A model generated the notes under the pieces. It searched no databases. It worked only from the letters and a program-made list of their open reading frames with translations, and was not told where the DNA came from. A stretch of DNA of 35,571 nucleotides from Fischerella sp. CENA71 (lineage in GTDB: Bacteria > Cyanobacteriota > Cyanobacteriia > Cyanobacteriales > Nostocaceae), in contig JANBVI010000052.1 in NCBI GenBank assembly GCA_024239075.1, positions 1-35,571 on the forward strand. Direction: 5' to 3'. Below, piece after piece: positions 28,800-35,571 of the stretch. A program made the translations under genes and the position numbers. Position 1 is the first letter of the stretch. Each line of letters starts with the position of its first letter.

Positions 28800-30599
28800 G
28801 TGCCAAAAATTATTAATTTAACACTTTCTAAATATACAGTTATGCCAGCAGATTTTGCAGGTAACAATTTAACTAATTCTCGAAATGTAAATGTTACTTA
28901 TATCAACCAAACCTTTAGAGATTGGGTAGGAAAGAGTGATAAAAACGATTACTATAGTCTCAACCTCAGTAATCGTAGTAGCTTAAATCTAGTTGTTGAT
29001 GGTTTGTCAAACGATGCTAATTTACAATTAGTAAATAGTAATGGTTCTGTAATTTCAGGTTCTTACAATAGTAAAAAAAAGGCAGAGTCTATCAGTACAA
29101 CTTTAGATGCTGGCACTTACTATATCCGAGTTTACCGAGTCAATAAGAAGAAGAGTACTTACTACAACTTAAAAGTTTCTGGCAACGAAGCACCACAATC
29201 ATTACAATTAAGCACTAGTAAAAGCACTTATCAACAAGGCGAAACAGTTAGTCTCAAAAACATCAGTGTATTTGATGGAAATGGTGCAGCTGACTTAGCA
29301 CGAGTAGATTTTAGTTTGCAAAAAAACGGTGGTGAATGGCAAGATATCAGCGATGTAGTGAATTTTATTGCCAATAGTAACGACAACCGCTACGCCAGTT
29401 TTGAATACAGTTTATCTGGTCTTGATGCAGGCAATTATGTATTATCAGCAAAAACCTACGATAAATCAGGTGCTAGTACAGACACCATACAAACTAGTTT
29501 TGGTATTATACCTGTTTCTACTCAAGACTGGTTTGACTTGAACATTCAAGATACAGGTATACGTGAGACTGCAAGGTGGCGTTTTACAGATAATGTTCTT
29601 GATCGCAATGATATGATTGCTATTTTTCGAGAAGCAAAAGATAGCAGTGTAGTTGACAGTAGTGAATTAACTGATTTGCGTACACTAGTTAATAATTCTT
29701 CTTCGTTAAGAATGCCAGATTATGTACGTGTTTTATCGAACAAAGTAGTTAATTATGATCTTGCTAATCAAAATTATCAAGGAAATACGCTAGGTAGTTT
29801 GTATGCAGGTAGCAGTGATATTCAAATCGAGAACTTAATTAGTAAGTGGTTTTTGGGTAGCGATCGCCCCACAACTTCCTACAATTATCAATACGCTAAT
29901 GGTTCTCTGTTTCAAAATGGCGCTACTTATCAAGATATTAAACAAGGTAGTCTGAATGATTGCTTTTTCCTCACAGGTTTAGCAGCAACTGCTTTCCGTT
30001 CACATAGCATGATTGAAAATATGTTTATTGACAACGGTGATCAAACTTTCACCGTGCGTTTTTACAATCATGTAATTGCTGATTATGTGACGGTAGATAA
30101 ATATTTACCCACCAATCAAGAAGGATATTTTATTTACGCCAATCAAGGCAATTACTACGGAAACTCTAATAATGAATTATGGGTAGCTTTAGCTGAAAAA
30201 GCTTACGCTCAACTTAACCAATCTGGATGGATTTATCAAGATAATACCAATTCTTATAATGGTATTAATAATGGTGGTTACGTCAGTGATGCACTCACAA
30301 ATATCACAGGATTAAAGACTTCTCTTGCCAATCTGCTTAATTTTAACTCAGTAGTGAATGCTTTCAATTCTGGGCAAATGATTGGTTTGAGTACAAAATC
30401 AACCGTGGTTAATGCAAATATTATTGCTAGTCATGCTTACGCATTAGTAGGTTACAATTCTTTAACCCAAATGTTTACACTGTTTAATCCGTGGGGTATC
30501 AATAACGGTACATCTAAACCGGATATGCTCGAACTGTCTTGGGATCAAATTGAAGCAAACTTTAGCTATTGGGATGCAACAACTAATAATATTGTTTAA
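28800..30599 (+). CDS. Calpain-like C2 family cysteine peptidase with PPC domain
   Basis: 599 residues from GTG at 28800 (an internal ATG at 28842 is an alternative). Residues about 35-135 form a bacterial pre-peptidase C-terminal (PPC) beta domain (KNDYYSLNLSNRSSLNLVVD ... AGTYYIRVY). An Ig-like stretch (about 140-240) comes next. The C-terminal half is a calpain catalytic domain with the triad Cys388 (QGSLNDCFFLTGLAA), His545 (SHAYALVGY) and Asn563 (LFNPWG). All catalytic residues are intact. There is no Sec signal peptide; PPC-bearing cyanobacterial proteases may leave by other routes, so location is unsettled. A hairpin with a T-run follows the stop. The next gene is also a peptidase and shares a short N-terminal motif with this one. 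Confidence 0.9.
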   Translation: MPKIINLTLSKYTVMPADFAGNNLTNSRNVNVTYINQTFRDWVGKSDKNDYYSLNLSNRSSLNLVVDGLSNDANLQLVNSNGSVISGSYNSKKKAESISTTLDAGTYYIRVYRVNKKKSTYYNLKVSGNEAPQSLQLSTSKSTYQQGETVSLKNISVFDGNGAADLARVDFSLQKNGGEWQDISDVVNFIANSNDNRYASFEYSLSGLDAGNYVLSAKTYDKSGASTDTIQTSFGIIPVSTQDWFDLNIQDTGIRETARWRFTDNVLDRNDMIAIFREAKDSSVVDSSELTDLRTLVNNSSSLRMPDYVRVLSNKVVNYDLANQNYQGNTLGSLYAGSSDIQIENLISKWFLGSDRPTTSYNYQYANGSLFQNGATYQDIKQGSLNDCFFLTGLAATAFRSHSMIENMFIDNGDQTFTVRFYNHVIADYVTVDKYLPTNQEGYFIYANQGNYYGNSNNELWVALAEKAYAQLNQSGWIYQDNTNSYNGINNGGYVSDALTNITGLKTSLANLLNFNSVVNAFNSGQMIGLSTKSTVVNANIIASHAYALVGYNSLTQMFTLFNPWGINNGTSKPDMLELSWDQIEANFSYWDATTNNIV

Positions 30600-30929: not shown

Positions 30930-32789
30930 ATGCCCAATCAAAATCATAGTCAAAACATATTTGATGATCACGGGCTAAATATTACTCCTAAATACTCAGC
31001 AAATGATTTCAGTTCTCCAGATGATTATTACTTGCGTCACAGTAATCGCAGTAGCTTTCAAACAACTGAAAATACTTTAGAATCAGATGTTAGTAGTCAG
31101 CGACAAAAAAATAGTAAATCGAAAAATTCTGTTCAAGCAAACGCAGTAGATTTAGTCATCCAAAACGCCTTTGCTCCTAGTGTGGCAAACGTAGGTAGCA
31201 CTATTCAAGTTTCTTATCAAGTAAAAAATAAAGGTAAAAATAGTGCTGGATTTAACTATACAGATTTTTATCTTTCTAAAGACAAAAATATTAGTAGTGA
31301 TGACTCTCTTTTAGGTTGGAACTGGCTTGGTAGTATTGGTGCTGGTAGTTATACTTCTCAATCTCAAAATGTAACTATAGATAGCAATCTTGCGCCAGGA
31401 AACTACTACATATTGTATAGAGCCGACGCTTTAGATAATGTACTAGAAATCAGTAACACAAATAACGTTTTCGCACGGGAAATTACTATTACCAAGACAG
31501 CAAGTGGAGGATATAATTCTACTTCCGGTTATGGCTTAATTAACGCTTCTAAAGCCGTAGCTAAAGCTAGCAATCAAAATACCTTTGCTGATGTTCCTGA
31601 CTTGGGTGGAAATAACTGGGGTGCTGATTTGGTAAAAGCACCAGAAACTTGGGCAAAGGGGTACACTGGTAAGGGCGTAGTTGTGGCTGTTTTGGATACC
31701 GGCGTAGATCATAATCACCAAGACTTGAGTTCTAATATTTGGACAAATAGCAAAGAAATTGCTGGTAACGGCAAAGATGATGATGGCAACGGTTATATTG
31801 ACGATTACTACGGTTGGAATTTTGACGGCAACAACAACAGTACTTTAGATGTCAACGGTCATGGTACTCACGTCTCTGGTACTATTGCTGGAGTGAACAA
31901 TGGCTATGGTGTGACTGGTATTGCCTATGACTCTAAAATTATGCCAGTCAAAGTTTTAGATGACGAAGGCTCAGGTTCTTATAATGCGATCGCCAATGGA
32001 ATTTACTACGCTGTAGATAATGGCGCTGATGTCATTAACTTAAGTTTGGGTGGTGGACGTTCTAACGATACACTCCAAAAAGCAATTGAATATGCCAGCA
32101 ACAAAGGTGTTATTGTAGTCATGGCAGCTGGTAACGATGGTAGTTCACAACCAGCCTATCCTGCTCGTTATGCAGACAAATATGGAATTGCAGTTGGTGC
32201 AGTAGATCAAAATAAAAATCTTGCAGACTTCTCTAACCGTGCAGGAGCAAAACAACTGACTTACGTCACCGCACCCGGAGTGAATATTTATTCTACACTT
32301 CCAGGTAACGAGTATGCATCTTATAGTGGTACATCAATGGCTACTCCCCATGTTGCGGGTGTAGTTGCTTTGATGCTGAGTGCTAACCCTAACTTGAGTG
32401 ATGCTCAAATACGTCAAATTCTCGCAGAAACATCAGGAAATACCACAACCCAAGCTGCAAACTATAACGTAAATACCAGTTCTGTTACAGAAACGAAAGC
32501 TAATAGCCTAAATTATCACACTAGTGTGACTGCTGTTTCTAGTTTTGATAATATTACTTCACCTTGGATTCGTAGCTATACAAATAGAGATATTGTGACT
32601 TCTGCTAGCAATCCCAATTTTATAAATGAGAATCAAAATAATATTTTGCCAAACTCATCTGCATGGTCACAATTTTGGCATGATTATAAGAACAGTGTAA
32701 TTGGTGATAACAGCACTAGTACAAGTAGTTATGATGATTCGGAAACAAGAAGTATAATAGAATCCAAAATTATGACGAAAACTTCTTAA
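30930..32789 (+). CDS. Subtilisin-like S8 serine peptidase with CARDB domain
   Basis: 619 residues, ATG after AAAGGAG. Residues about 28-42 (DDYYLRHSNRSSF) match the start of the PPC domain in the preceding calpain. A CARDB adhesion-type domain (about 70-188, VDLVIQNAFAPSVANVGSTI) follows. The S8 catalytic domain (about 225-485) has Asp256 (VAVLDTGVDHNHQDL), His311 (GHGTHVSGTIAG) and Ser469 (SGTSMATPHVAG); LSLGGG and AAGNDG complete the family pattern. Asp-rich loops (GKDDDGNGYIDD) suggest calcium binding. The last ~130 residues are Ser/Asn-rich and unassigned. No Sec signal peptide. The catalytic triad is intact, so it is probably an active protease; substrates are unknown. Confidence 0.93.
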   Translation: MPNQNHSQNIFDDHGLNITPKYSANDFSSPDDYYLRHSNRSSFQTTENTLESDVSSQRQKNSKSKNSVQANAVDLVIQNAFAPSVANVGSTIQVSYQVKNKGKNSAGFNYTDFYLSKDKNISSDDSLLGWNWLGSIGAGSYTSQSQNVTIDSNLAPGNYYILYRADALDNVLEISNTNNVFAREITITKTASGGYNSTSGYGLINASKAVAKASNQNTFADVPDLGGNNWGADLVKAPETWAKGYTGKGVVVAVLDTGVDHNHQDLSSNIWTNSKEIAGNGKDDDGNGYIDDYYGWNFDGNNNSTLDVNGHGTHVSGTIAGVNNGYGVTGIAYDSKIMPVKVLDDEGSGSYNAIANGIYYAVDNGADVINLSLGGGRSNDTLQKAIEYASNKGVIVVMAAGNDGSSQPAYPARYADKYGIAVGAVDQNKNLADFSNRAGAKQLTYVTAPGVNIYSTLPGNEYASYSGTSMATPHVAGVVALMLSANPNLSDAQIRQILAETSGNTTTQAANYNVNTSSVTETKANSLNYHTSVTAVSSFDNITSPWIRSYTNRDIVTSASNPNFINENQNNILPNSSAWSQFWHDYKNSVIGDNSTSTSSYDDSETRSIIESKIMTKTS

Positions 32790-32908: not shown

Positions 32909-33322
32909 ATGGATATCGCTTTACTAGTCAAAATTTTAGCGCCCTGCTTGCCATTCCTGATGAATGTGGGCAATAAAGCTGTAGAAGGTGCATCTCAAAA
33001 AATAGGTGAAGATGTGTGGAACAAGGGAAAAGCAATTTGGGGTAAGTTAAATCCGCAAGTAGAAGCAAAACAAACAGCGCTAGAAGCAGCAACCGACTTA
33101 GCAAATCATCCAGAAGACGAAGATTTGCAAGCAACTTTGCGCGTACAACTCAAGAAAATCTTAGAAAACGACACAGCACTAGCAGCAGAAATCACCAAAA
33201 TTTTGCAAACCGCATCCTCAACCCAGCCAACAGGTGACAATATTCAAATTAGTGGTCAATCCTACGACCAAAGTACATTAAAGCAGGTAGGGAAAATAGA
33301 AGGAAACCAAGTTAGTTTATAA
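32909..33322 (+). CDS. Putative BELL-domain cell-death effector with C-terminal amyloid-type motif
   Basis: 137 residues. Seen: a hydrophobic N-terminus (MDIALLVKILAPCLPFLMNV), an amphipathic helical body (NKAVEGASQKIGEDVWNKGK, LQATLRVQLKKILENDTALA), a Ser/Thr/Pro hinge (about 101-108), and a short C-terminal beta-prone tail, residues 108-137, containing DNI, QS and QVGKIE and ending V.L. Known: BELL proteins of multicellular bacteria are small helical, putatively membrane-acting effectors carrying a C-terminal BASS motif that matches one at the N-terminus of an adjacent NLR. Here the tail aligns without gaps to residues 9-38 of the NB-ARC gene downstream. Inference: this is the effector of an NLR-effector pair. 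The family assignment rests on pattern memory, the motif match on the sequence. Confidence 0.75.
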   Translation: MDIALLVKILAPCLPFLMNVGNKAVEGASQKIGEDVWNKGKAIWGKLNPQVEAKQTALEAATDLANHPEDEDLQATLRVQLKKILENDTALAAEITKILQTASSTQPTGDNIQISGQSYDQSTLKQVGKIEGNQVSL

Positions 33323-33375
33323 GTAATATCACTTATCTAACCTTGATATAATTTAATGCAGACGCCTGCAATCGT

Positions 33376-33459
33376 AATGTAACGCGATGCATTAACAATG
33401 TAGGACGATACATTAACAATGTAACGCGATACATTAACAATGTAGGGCGATGCATTCGT
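33376..33459. repeat. 21-bp tandem repeats, each a small palindrome (4 units)
   Basis: Units begin at 33376, 33397, 33418 and 33439, each of the form AATGTA-nnnCGA-T(G/A)CATT-AAC (the last ends CGT). The AATGTA and TACATT/TGCATT halves pair, and the six bases between are AACGCGA-like or GGACGA-like. A partial unit follows from 33460. Confidence 0.75.
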
Positions 33460-33508
33460 AATGCAATACCAATTTGAAAAAAGAATGCGACAGATAAATT
33501 CTGTTGTA

Positions 33509-33530
33509 GAGACGCGATAAATCGCGTCTC
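33509..33530. repeat. GAGACG-type interspersed palindrome
   Basis: GAGACGCGAT, an AA loop, then ATCGCGTCTC: a perfect 10-bp stem. It has the same outer bases as the palindromes at 3182-3203 and 30640-30660 but a different pairing interior. Confidence 0.65.
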
Positions 33531-33658
33531 ATATTATGAATGTGTCGCAAACATTTTTTGAATCGGTATAAGGCGATGCATTCGTAATCTAGGTGAATAC
33601 AGAACCTCTCGAATGTTCAAAAATCCGCCTGCGATTAAAATCACAGTCTCATAGCTAA

Positions 33659-33676
33659 AGTCTGCTTCAGCAGACT
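33659..33676. repeat. AGTCTGCT/AGCAGACT palindrome
   Basis: AGTCTGCT (33659-33666), a TC loop, then AGCAGACT (33669-33676): a perfect 8-bp stem without a T-run. I recall similar elements dispersed in cyanobacterial genomes. Confidence 0.5.
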
Positions 33677-33728
33677 GCTTGATTTGTTTGAGTTTAGGAC
33701 TAGCCTTTTGGTGGTGTAATGTAGTTTT

Positions 33729-33796
33729 CTTGGTGTCTTGGTGTCTTGGTGTTTCAAAAATTAATTGTTTAACCACCAAGACACTAAGACACGAAG
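33729..33796. repeat. Long inverted repeat built of GGTGTCTT units
   Basis: The arm 33729-33751 is CTTGGTG plus TCTTGGTG repeated. The arm 33774-33796 is its reverse complement at 21 of 23 positions, with 22 bp between. It ends 58 bp before the NLR start codon and would form a strong hairpin in RNA. Its role (terminator, attenuator or mobile repeat) is open. Confidence 0.65.
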
Positions 33797-33854
33797 GTGA
33801 AAAGAAAAATATATGAGCTTTTTTCTTGTCTTCTAAGACTCTCTGTTCTCATCC

Positions 33855-35571
33855 ATGACAGAAGCAAACAACCCGGACAATCCCGATAATATCAATCTTG
33901 ATGCAACTGCTCACGAACAGAGTCAGGTAACTCAAGTTGGCAAAATCGAAGCAACAACAGTTGTGTTGAATGCAGCACAATTAGAACTGGTAGAAATACT
34001 AGAACGCAGTAGCAAAGCACAATCAGCAGGGGTTCTCAAGGCGGGAAATCCTTGTAAAAGTTTAGCTTATTGGCAGGGACGCACAACAGAAATTGCTCAA
34101 TTGCAGCAGTGGTTAAATGATCCAAATGTTGCTTTAATTGGCATTGAAGGCATTGGTGGAACTGGAAAATCAATGCTAGCTGCCAAAATTTATGAAGAAA
34201 TCGCAGGTTTCCCCAAACGATTTTGGGCTGATGTTGGTAGTGGTGCTGTTTTTAGTGAATTTGCACGGCGCATACTGAGTGAGTTTGACTGTCCGATTCC
34301 AGAACAAGAGTCACAACTCATCGAAGCTTTAGTGAAGTGTCTGCAATCTGGGCAATATTTATTGATTATTGATAACTTAGAAAGTTTATTACAACCGGAT
34401 AGACAATGGGCTAGTCAATTCTACGGTGAGTTTTTCAACTATTGGCTAGAATATGGCAACAACAGTACAGTAGTTGTCACCACCAGAGAACGACCGCAAG
34501 AGGGAAAATTTACATGGCTACCTCTTTCTGGTTTAAAAGTAGAAGAGGGAACAGCACTACTCACAGCATTGGGAATTGGCGGAGATTTAGAGAATTTTGT
34601 CACATTAGTAGATGGACATCCTTTGCTGTTGCGGTTAGTAGCAGATTTAATTAAAGAAGAATACCCACAACACCCGAATTTAGAACATTTAGCAGATTTG
34701 GGATTAGGAAATTTACAAGAGTTGTTAACAAACCCAAAAGTAGTTGGTTTGCATCGCCGGGAAAATGTGGGGATGGTGTTGGTCTTGGATGCTAGTTTTG
34801 AGCGTTTGAGTGATTTGCAAAAAACACTGTTACTCAACGTTAGTGTTTATCGGAGTGCTTTTGATCAGGTAGCAGCAGCTGCTTTGTTAACAGGAGATGG
34901 ACAGGTAGATATTAAGAAAGAATTGAGAAACCTGGTGAAGCGTTCCTTTTTGTTAGAAACATTCAACAATCAGCGAAAGTATCAGTTTCAGCCAGTGGTG
35001 TTGGAGTATGTGCGCTACAAAGCAGGCGATCACACAGCAGCACATCAACAAGCTATTTATCATTATCTCAAGAATATAAAACAAAAACCTTGGCACACCA
35101 TAGAAGATGTTAAAGAATATCTAGAAATTTTTTATCATTGGTATCAACTAGAAAACTATGACTCAGCATTTAATATCTTAAGAGCCTGCGATGACTTTTT
35201 AACACTGCGAGGTTATTACACTGTCAAAGTTGATGTATATGGGCAATTGATAGCGGCTTGGGAAAAAATAGGAGACAGAGAAAACTTGCATTCTTGCGCT
35301 TCTCTGACTTCGTTAGGTAATGCTTACAATTCCCTGGGAGAATATCAAACGGCGATAAACTTCCACCAGCAATCTTTAGAAATAGCAACACAAATAGGTG
35401 ATCGTTCTGGACAAGAGGCTTCTTTAGGCAATTTGGGTGTTGCTTACAAATCTCTGGGAGAATATCAACAGGCAATACAGTTCTACAAGCAATCTTTAGA
35501 AATAGCGACACAAATAGGCTGTCTCTTGATCACATCTACGCACAGCTCCACCGGTAGAGGAATGGCGAATG
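33855..35571 (+). CDS. NB-ARC/TPR NLR-like STAND protein with N-terminal amyloid-type motif, truncated by an IS end
   Basis: Starts ATG at 33855; 555 codons in the native frame to the junction at 35518/35519, the frame then staying open to the window edge. Residues 9-38 carry the motif shared with the upstream 137-aa protein (DNI, QS, QVGKIE, V.L). After a short linker and AYWQGRTTEIAQLQQWL comes an NB-ARC NTPase: Walker A GIGGTGKS with Lys105, Walker B YLLIIDNLE with Asp173, a sensor-like VVVTTRE and HPLLLRL. A winged-helix-like region follows (SFERLSDLQKTLLLNVSVYR). From about 490, TPR units SLGNAYNSLGEYQTAINFHQ and SLGNLGVAYKSLGEYQQAIQ would form the sensor array. Known role of the class: ligand-triggered oligomerisation. 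Inferred: the motif then seeds the upstream effector. Homology to the TPR repeat stops exactly at 35518, where a transposon-like end begins, so this copy is probably broken. Confidence 0.85.
   Translation, partial: MTEANNPDNPDNINLDATAHEQSQVTQVGKIEATTVVLNAAQLELVEILERSSKAQSAGVLKAGNPCKSLAYWQGRTTEIAQLQQWLNDPNVALIGIEGIGGTGKSMLAAKIYEEIAGFPKRFWADVGSGAVFSEFARRILSEFDCPIPEQESQLIEALVKCLQSGQYLLIIDNLESLLQPDRQWASQFYGEFFNYWLEYGNNSTVVVTTRERPQEGKFTWLPLSGLKVEEGTALLTALGIGGDLENFVTLVDGHPLLLRLVADLIKEEYPQHPNLEHLADLGLGNLQELLTNPKVVGLHRRENVGMVLVLDASFERLSDLQKTLLLNVSVYRSAFDQVAAAALLTGDGQVDIKKELRNLVKRSFLLETFNNQRKYQFQPVVLEYVRYKAGDHTAAHQQAIYHYLKNIKQKPWHTIEDVKEYLEIFYHWYQLENYDSAFNILRACDDFLTLRGYYTVKVDVYGQLIAAWEKIGDRENLHSCASLTSLGNAYNSLGEYQTAINFHQQSLEIATQIGDRSGQEASLGNLGVAYKSLGEYQQAIQFYKQSLEIATQIGCLLITSTHSSTGRGMAN
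35519..35571. mobile_element. End of an IS50/Tn5-like insertion sequence (partial)
   Basis: CTGTCTCTTGATCACATCT at 35519-35537 matches, from memory, the IS50 (Tn5) inside end at 18 of 19 positions. The second TPR copy continues as expected up to ACAAATAGG (35510-35518) and then departs from the first copy, which has TGATCGTTCTGG there. IS50-group elements duplicate 9 bp of target, so ACAAATAGG is the predicted duplication. The remaining 34 bp to the edge show no transposase. A library adapter artefact is possible but the sequence differs from the Nextera mosaic end at three bases. Confidence 0.6.

Follow-up and report, generated by a model that had tools for sequence, protein, structure and literature searches.

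Near the end of a 35,571-nucleotide stretch of DNA from Fischerella sp. CENA71 (contig JANBVI010000052.1 of assembly GCA_024239075.1, positions 1 to 35,571, hereafter the window), a gene for a small protein of 137 amino acids (aa) is followed on the same strand by a gene for an NB-ARC/TPR protein, and 30 residues at the C-terminus of the former resemble 30 residues near the N-terminus of the latter. This arrangement raises the question of whether the shared motif is what joins the small protein, regarded here as the effector or executor (32909–33322, + strand), to its NLR, the receptor or sensor (33855–35518, + strand), and whether it would do so as an amyloid. Our analysis suggests that the window pair probably belongs to the BELL/BASS-type NLR signalosomes of bacteria, with amyloid templating and a membrane-acting effector. 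It also points to one executor/receptor pair that is probably wired in two interchangeable ways, in which the motif is carried either twice, as in the window (class A), or once together with a −1 frameshift fusion (class B).

The shared motif and its pairing by class

The initial annotation had described an ungapped match of effector residues 108–137 (33230–33319) to NLR residues 9–38 (33879–33968), with 13 of the 30 positions identical, and a recount returned the same numbers; the core of the motif reads QVGKIE, and the use of different codons at eight of the 13 identical residues was confirmed as well. The local alignment score of the motif is 66. When the effector tail was shuffled 20,000 times and aligned with the NLR N-terminus, no score exceeded 46; under a harsher scheme comparing the whole effector with the whole NLR, two of 5,000 shuffles reached 66 (maximum 74). 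In comparison with two relatives, L033 and L034, the effector tail carries no non-synonymous and three or four synonymous changes. Within the genome of the window, the class-A motif is strong at two places only, both in the window pair, with the third match having an E-value of 1.16.

The RHIM tetrad has a core of the form hydrophobic-Q-hydrophobic-G, and the earlier suggestion that the window motif recalls it holds loosely, for the Q-V-G part only; the core is K/T-Q-V-G (KQVG, TQVG), with no hydrophobic residue before Q. The first hydrophobic residue is likewise lacking in the other class-A effectors and NLRs, and three class-A NLRs read SVG, MVG or QVA at the core. For comparison, the accessible part of PMC8086366 gives GVQVG for the BASS3 peptide of Frankia ORT49035.1. 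Set beside BASS3 and RHIM-related motifs as far as that part presents them, the window motif shares the Q-V-G core followed by a G/A-x-x-V stretch, but differs from the V-Q-V-G of BASS3 in placing a charged or polar residue first (K-Q-V-G or T-Q-V-G) and in that the hydrophobic pair that comes next lies farther away.

At an E-value of 0.001 or better, 64 of the 193 family genomes searched contain a homologue of the 137-aa effector, its own genome included. A total of 79 effector places were fetched with their flanks, and 75 effectors, the window's own among them, were kept after duplicates, broken and distant copies were dropped. A P-loop gene lies downstream on the same strand within 900 bp at 64 of the 75 loci. 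The effector tails, sorted by text patterns of our own, fell into nine classes that overlap in part (C with D and H, E with I), with five tails outside any class, and the class of the tail is also the class of the NLR N-terminus in eight of the nine, class B being the exception. Over 41 non-redundant pairs, the mean score of a tail was 54.9 against its own NLR and 28.0 against the others; with class B omitted, the remaining 31 pairs gave 67.3 and 34.0, and none of 10,000 permutations was as high in either comparison. The motif was also found to be co-conserved in homologous adjacent pairs, as 20 of the 22 class-A effectors are accompanied by a P-loop NLR (same strand, within 900 bp) and all 20 of these NLRs bear it.

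A survey of 186 family genomes located the class-A motif at 42 places in 21 genomes. Exactly two copies were present in 16 of them, four in G004 (two pairs), three in G033 and one in each of three genomes; the single copies are the effectors of loci L039 and L052 and a fragment with a stop in G125. Across the genomes searched, we take the motif to be confined to pairs of this type. The match in the window could in principle reflect chance or a functionless duplication of the tail, given that 30 residues are short and that one of the two genes might have acquired a copy of its neighbour's tail. We regard this as highly improbable: chance is already refuted by the shuffles, the class matching and the distribution of two copies per genome, and the matching over 31 non-redundant pairs in eight tail classes, together with the effector tail having no non-synonymous change in two relatives, speaks against both forms of the explanation.

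A few of these places deserve separate mention. The fragment in G125 (G125:C105:34473–34544) is a motif relic interrupted by a stop codon, in a genome without a match to the effector module. The third place in G033 belongs to a second NLR (L111), which carries a class-E motif and then a class-A-like motif in tandem, as if it could address two effectors. At L049 and L115 the class-A motif stands on an NLR core that, judged by eye, is unlike that of the window, so motifs may move between cores too.

The effector module and the proposed signalosome

Residues 1–105 of the effector (32909–33223) are conserved across 31 aligned sequences (alignment A2), with six invariant columns, and the remainder is not, the C-terminal tail being swappable. 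P12, P15 and L17 are invariant in all 31 rows and lie in a hydrophobic N-terminal segment (residues 3–17, 32915–32959) whose Kyte-Doolittle mean over 15 residues is 2.27, the next best value after residue 25 being 0.67; the N-terminal segment was hydrophobic in all nine effectors examined. The helical nature claimed for the protein is upheld by an AlphaFold2 prediction that places helices within residues 3–101, with pLDDT mostly 80–90 except at residues 21–30, and leaves the tail disordered. A profile search with A2 across the phylum revealed module homologues in 27 of 386 genomes, and a module profile run on 296 genomes from across the actinobacterial phylum revealed relatives in three, that of L037 included. 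One of the actinobacterial relatives, in G300, adjoins an NB-ARC-like gene and, used as a query, matched in 43 of 245 genomes of its order. Comparison of the actinobacterial NLR-linked set with the cyanobacterial module by hhalign gave a probability of 97.9% (E 3e-13, 74 columns), and some of the actinobacterial relatives end in VQIG or IQIG tails (L171, L178). From sequence comparison, identity of the effector module with BELL is strongly suggested.

Bacterial NLR amyloid signalosomes of the BELL/BASS kind are reportedly the subject of Dyrka et al. 2020. The accessible parts of PMC7889193, PMC9815663, PMC12261475, PMC8086366 and PMC7885112 present BELL effectors together with ten families of BASS motifs, chiefly from actinobacteria and cyanobacteria; BELL appears in an NLR-adjacent setting in PMC7889193, and this paper and PMC9815663 describe the BELL/BASS layout for bacteria, among them cyanobacteria, in agreement with the initial annotation that the concept is known. 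The window pair has in common with these systems the adjacent genes, the motif at the effector C-terminus and the NLR N-terminus, a small, predicted helical effector with a hydrophobic N-terminus, and an NLR with NB-ARC and repeats. The interpretation of the initial annotation is supported: two of the points named there as able to refute it, co-conservation of the motif in adjacent pairs and relationship of the module to BELL, came out in its favour as far as they were examined, the second through the NLR-adjacent modules of actinobacteria. Class-wise matching also supports this layout, and the pair fits every BELL/BASS layout feature tested here, published profiles aside. Taken alone, it is a further member of a described bacterial class, and the variant lies in its sister loci: at class-B loci the second motif copy is lacking and the genes are joined by a predicted −1 frameshift signal, in which they differ from BELL/BASS as described. 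The fungal NWD2/HET-S and PNT1/HELLP pairs likewise have an NLR N-terminal motif that templates the C-terminal motif of a membrane-acting partner, as given in the accessible part of PMC7889193, and their motifs belong to families that literature descriptions set apart from that of the window.

We infer the following course of events. The NB-ARC/TPR protein would sense a trigger through its repeats and oligomerise, gathering its N-terminal 30-residue motifs, which would nucleate a cross-beta assembly and template the C-terminal motif of the 137-aa protein. Gathered in this way, the effector may have its hydrophobic N-terminal helical module driven into the membrane, so that the cell would be killed or stopped, presumably in defence.

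Two steps of this scheme have alternatives. The shared motif might act by a non-amyloid homotypic contact, such as a paired beta-strand or a binding peptide, that recruits the effector with no fibril; class matching and pairing need only homotypic recognition, and the core contains charged residues (KIE). We consider such a contact unlikely, as the BASS3 peptide of Frankia and a Methanothrix NLR motif aggregate in an amyloid-like manner according to the accessible part of PMC8086366, and the window motif is disordered in the model and shares its shortness with known amyloid signalling motifs. In the other alternative, the helical module would be an adaptor instead of a membrane killer, with killing done elsewhere, for instance by a CHAT protease fused to it in certain relatives. 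A long N-terminal extension does precede the module in 12 of the 75 effectors, and a scan of one of these extensions identified it as a CHAT protease domain (E 1.3e-8), but the window protein and 62 of the 74 others have no such extension and, with the hydrophobic N-terminus of all nine effectors examined, this makes the adaptor role rather unlikely.

Several results weigh against amyloid templating by a BELL/BASS pair as the explanation of the locus. An effector's own NLR was the single best or tied for just nine of the 41 effectors, which is because class members resemble one another. The covariation of the two motifs for which the initial annotation had proposed a test was not seen: in class A the mean score was 53.5 with the own NLR and 54.5 with the others (12 non-redundant pairs), and permutations were at or above the own value 7,450 times out of 10,000, or 6,926 times with all 20 pairs, so that pairing goes by class with no sign of fine covariation. 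Downstream of the class-A effectors of L039 and L052, the stretch examined contains no NLR with the motif. In the close relative L038, the NLR reads QVAKIE in place of QVGKIE, so the core glycine is not absolute there, and fold comparison returned no match of any weight. Lastly, class B appears to couple its NLR without a second motif copy, so that two-protein templating would not be the sole way.

The effectors of L039 (the same locus as L034) and L052 are intact in sequence; L034 lacks the NB-ARC part and has partly masked TPR sequence near the effector. A second, distant protein of the module is encoded in the window's own genome (L120:4382–4831, contig C66; 149 aa, profile E 1.9e-6); it has a different, repeat-like tail and no adjoining NLR, and a zinc-ribbon-looking protein is encoded after it.

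Class-B loci and a predicted −1 frameshift

Class B comprises 20 loci (L055, L056, L058–L064, L066, L069, L070, L074, L076, L078–L081, L083 and L100); L092 was set aside from these 20, yet it has the same junction. The class-B loci share the module with the window and have a window-type NLR, the NLR core of L074 being 72% identical to that of the window, but no second motif copy stands on the NLR: the effectors end in a conserved tail of their own and the NLR frame starts without the motif. In the 186 family genomes, strong matches to the class-B tail number 20 and are spread over 19 genomes, all of them in frames of effector length (106–156 residues) and none on an NLR, with the 21st match (E 0.006) being a fragment. 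Compared with the places counted for the class-A motif, this indicates two encoded copies of the motif in each class-A system and a single copy in each class-B system.

An in-frame slippery heptamer stands directly before the effector TAA at all 20 class-B loci (CCCAAAG at 19 and AAAAAAG at one), and L092 also has an X_XXA_AAG heptamer directly before its TAA. Any X_XXY_YYZ heptamer at the end was observed in one of 55 other effectors and two of 188 plus-strand neighbouring open reading frames (ORFs). On the two strands of the 679,061 bp of DNA fetched, the sequence CCCAAAGTAA was found 22 times, and 20 of the 22 occurrences are class-B junctions, L092 included. At all 20 loci the NLR frame is open through the effector stop in the −1 frame, and the upstream stop of this frame is located 10 to 31 nt ahead of the effector end. 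Read through the slip, the class-B tail aligns at the position of the class-A NLR motif (MAFFT), and the gap that follows the tail codes for a stretch aligning with the class-A NLR N-terminus. Downstream hairpin arms (TTGCTGT/ACAGCAA) are found at 15 of the 20 loci, and the z-scores of this candidate stimulatory RNA structure range over all 20 from −3.35 to 0.74, being ≤−2 at six. The available part of PMC5009743 names C_CCA_AAG, along with A_AAG following A_AA, as very prone to shifting in E. coli, and that of PMC4066793 calls X_XX.A_AA.G the most proficient type of heptamer in prokaryotes.

The class-B junction is accordingly comparable with −1 frameshift cassettes on X_XXZ_ZZN, with which it shares the in-frame heptamer and the open −1 frame, and the window pair shares neither. 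The last seven nucleotides of the window effector are TAGTTTA, with no slippery heptamer at its end, and the window NLR frame is closed by a stop 514 nt after the last codon of the effector, so the window pair has no frameshift link. As judged from these sequence features, the class-B junction is predicted to be a programmed frameshift that gives a BELL-tail-NLR fusion. A −1 slip on C_CCA_AAG or A_AAA_AAG at the effector stop would put the BELL-tail unit before the NLR, and the ribosome would make both a free executor and an executor-receptor fusion with the same tail, in a ratio set by the slip rate. Known programmed −1 frameshifting differs in two respects: the predicted product in class B is an immune effector fused to its own receptor, and the stop codon comes immediately after the heptamer.

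The class-B NLR could instead start independently after the effector stop, from ATG, GTG, TTG or a non-standard codon, by translational coupling. One of the three start codons does occur in the NLR frame 41–50 nt after the effector at 14 of the 20 loci, and in pairwise comparison over 16 of the 20 loci the third codon position of the gap is the least variable (66, 102 and 13 differences by position), a pattern unlike the one that coding constraint usually leaves. At six of the 20 loci, however, the NLR frame contains no ATG, GTG or TTG ahead of the conserved SLAYW region. The heptamer at all 20 loci and L092, against its rarity in other effectors and neighbouring ORFs, also speaks against an independent start, as does the stretch encoded in the gap that aligns with the class-A NLR N-terminus. 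We therefore think an independent start improbable and retain the predicted frameshift.

The distribution of the two wirings was examined on two trees. The tree of NLR cores contains 35 of the 40 class-A and class-B loci that have an NLR, and classes A and B need 11 changes on it, at least seven of which are forced by well supported branches; shuffling the labels gave as few changes in 179 of 500 cases, which means that this tree shows hardly any clustering of the wiring. On the module tree, which holds 74 effectors on few columns with many weak forks, A needs eight changes and B five, and the labels are clustered (none of 500 shuffles as low). The NLR-core tree shows repeated switching between A and B, even inside one genome: in G088, the class-A pair L050 and the class-B pair L066 share 91% identity in the NLR core and 95% in the module. 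The junction may move as a cassette, or NLR cores may have been swapped behind it, and both fit the trees. With closely related cores behind both junctions, the second motif copy and the frameshift can be read as doing the same job, namely joining executor and sensor. This would support a recruiting role of the window motif, without proving the amyloid step.

The two wirings would amount to a natural swap, in which related sensor cores have a templated partner or, as predicted, a covalent partner made by frameshifting, and they make it testable whether the amyloid motif is merely a device joining effector and receptor. As far as our searches of the open-licence literature reach, the class-B wiring was not found described, and no report of frameshifting in bacterial NLR or antiphage systems was found there. 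If true, the dosing of an immune receptor against its executor would be a new use of −1 frameshifting within the literature searched.

The NLR gene at the contig end and its surroundings

The NB-ARC/TPR architecture given by the initial annotation agrees with Pfam, which places an NB-ARC domain at NLR residues 77–212 (34083–34490; PF00931, E 1.2e-10) and TPR repeats at residues 482–552 (35298–35510; PF13424, E 2.5e-16). The NLR ORF spans 33855–35570 and encodes 572 aa, open at the contig end, and the homologous NLR of Fischerella sp. PCC 9431 (L033) has 881 aa. Similarity to the latter stops at base 35519, and the last 53 bases (35519–35571, + strand) open with 19 bases that are also found where contigs C39, C55, C65 and C68 end. 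The end of homology together with the recurrence of tail bases at contig ends indicates that the NLR is cut by the contig and is not complete. All these contigs belong to the assembly of the window, as do C39, C62 and C74, which contain the 19 bases internally; within C39, what we take to be Illumina P7 sequence comes next. The last 53 bases are probably a sequencing-adapter remnant lying outside the gene, which would extend the NLR frame falsely by 17 residues; the end of a mobile element is another possibility.

The nearest named relative of the effector is also that of Fischerella sp. PCC 9431 (98%), a filamentous cyanobacterium. The spacer between effector and NLR (33323–33854) contains short direct repeats of cattaacaatgta units at 33370–33470. 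Directly upstream, on the same strand, the window encodes a calpain-family protease with a PPC domain (28800–30599) and a subtilase with a CARDB domain (30930–32789), and frames similar to these two in size and start are also located upstream in the close relative L034.

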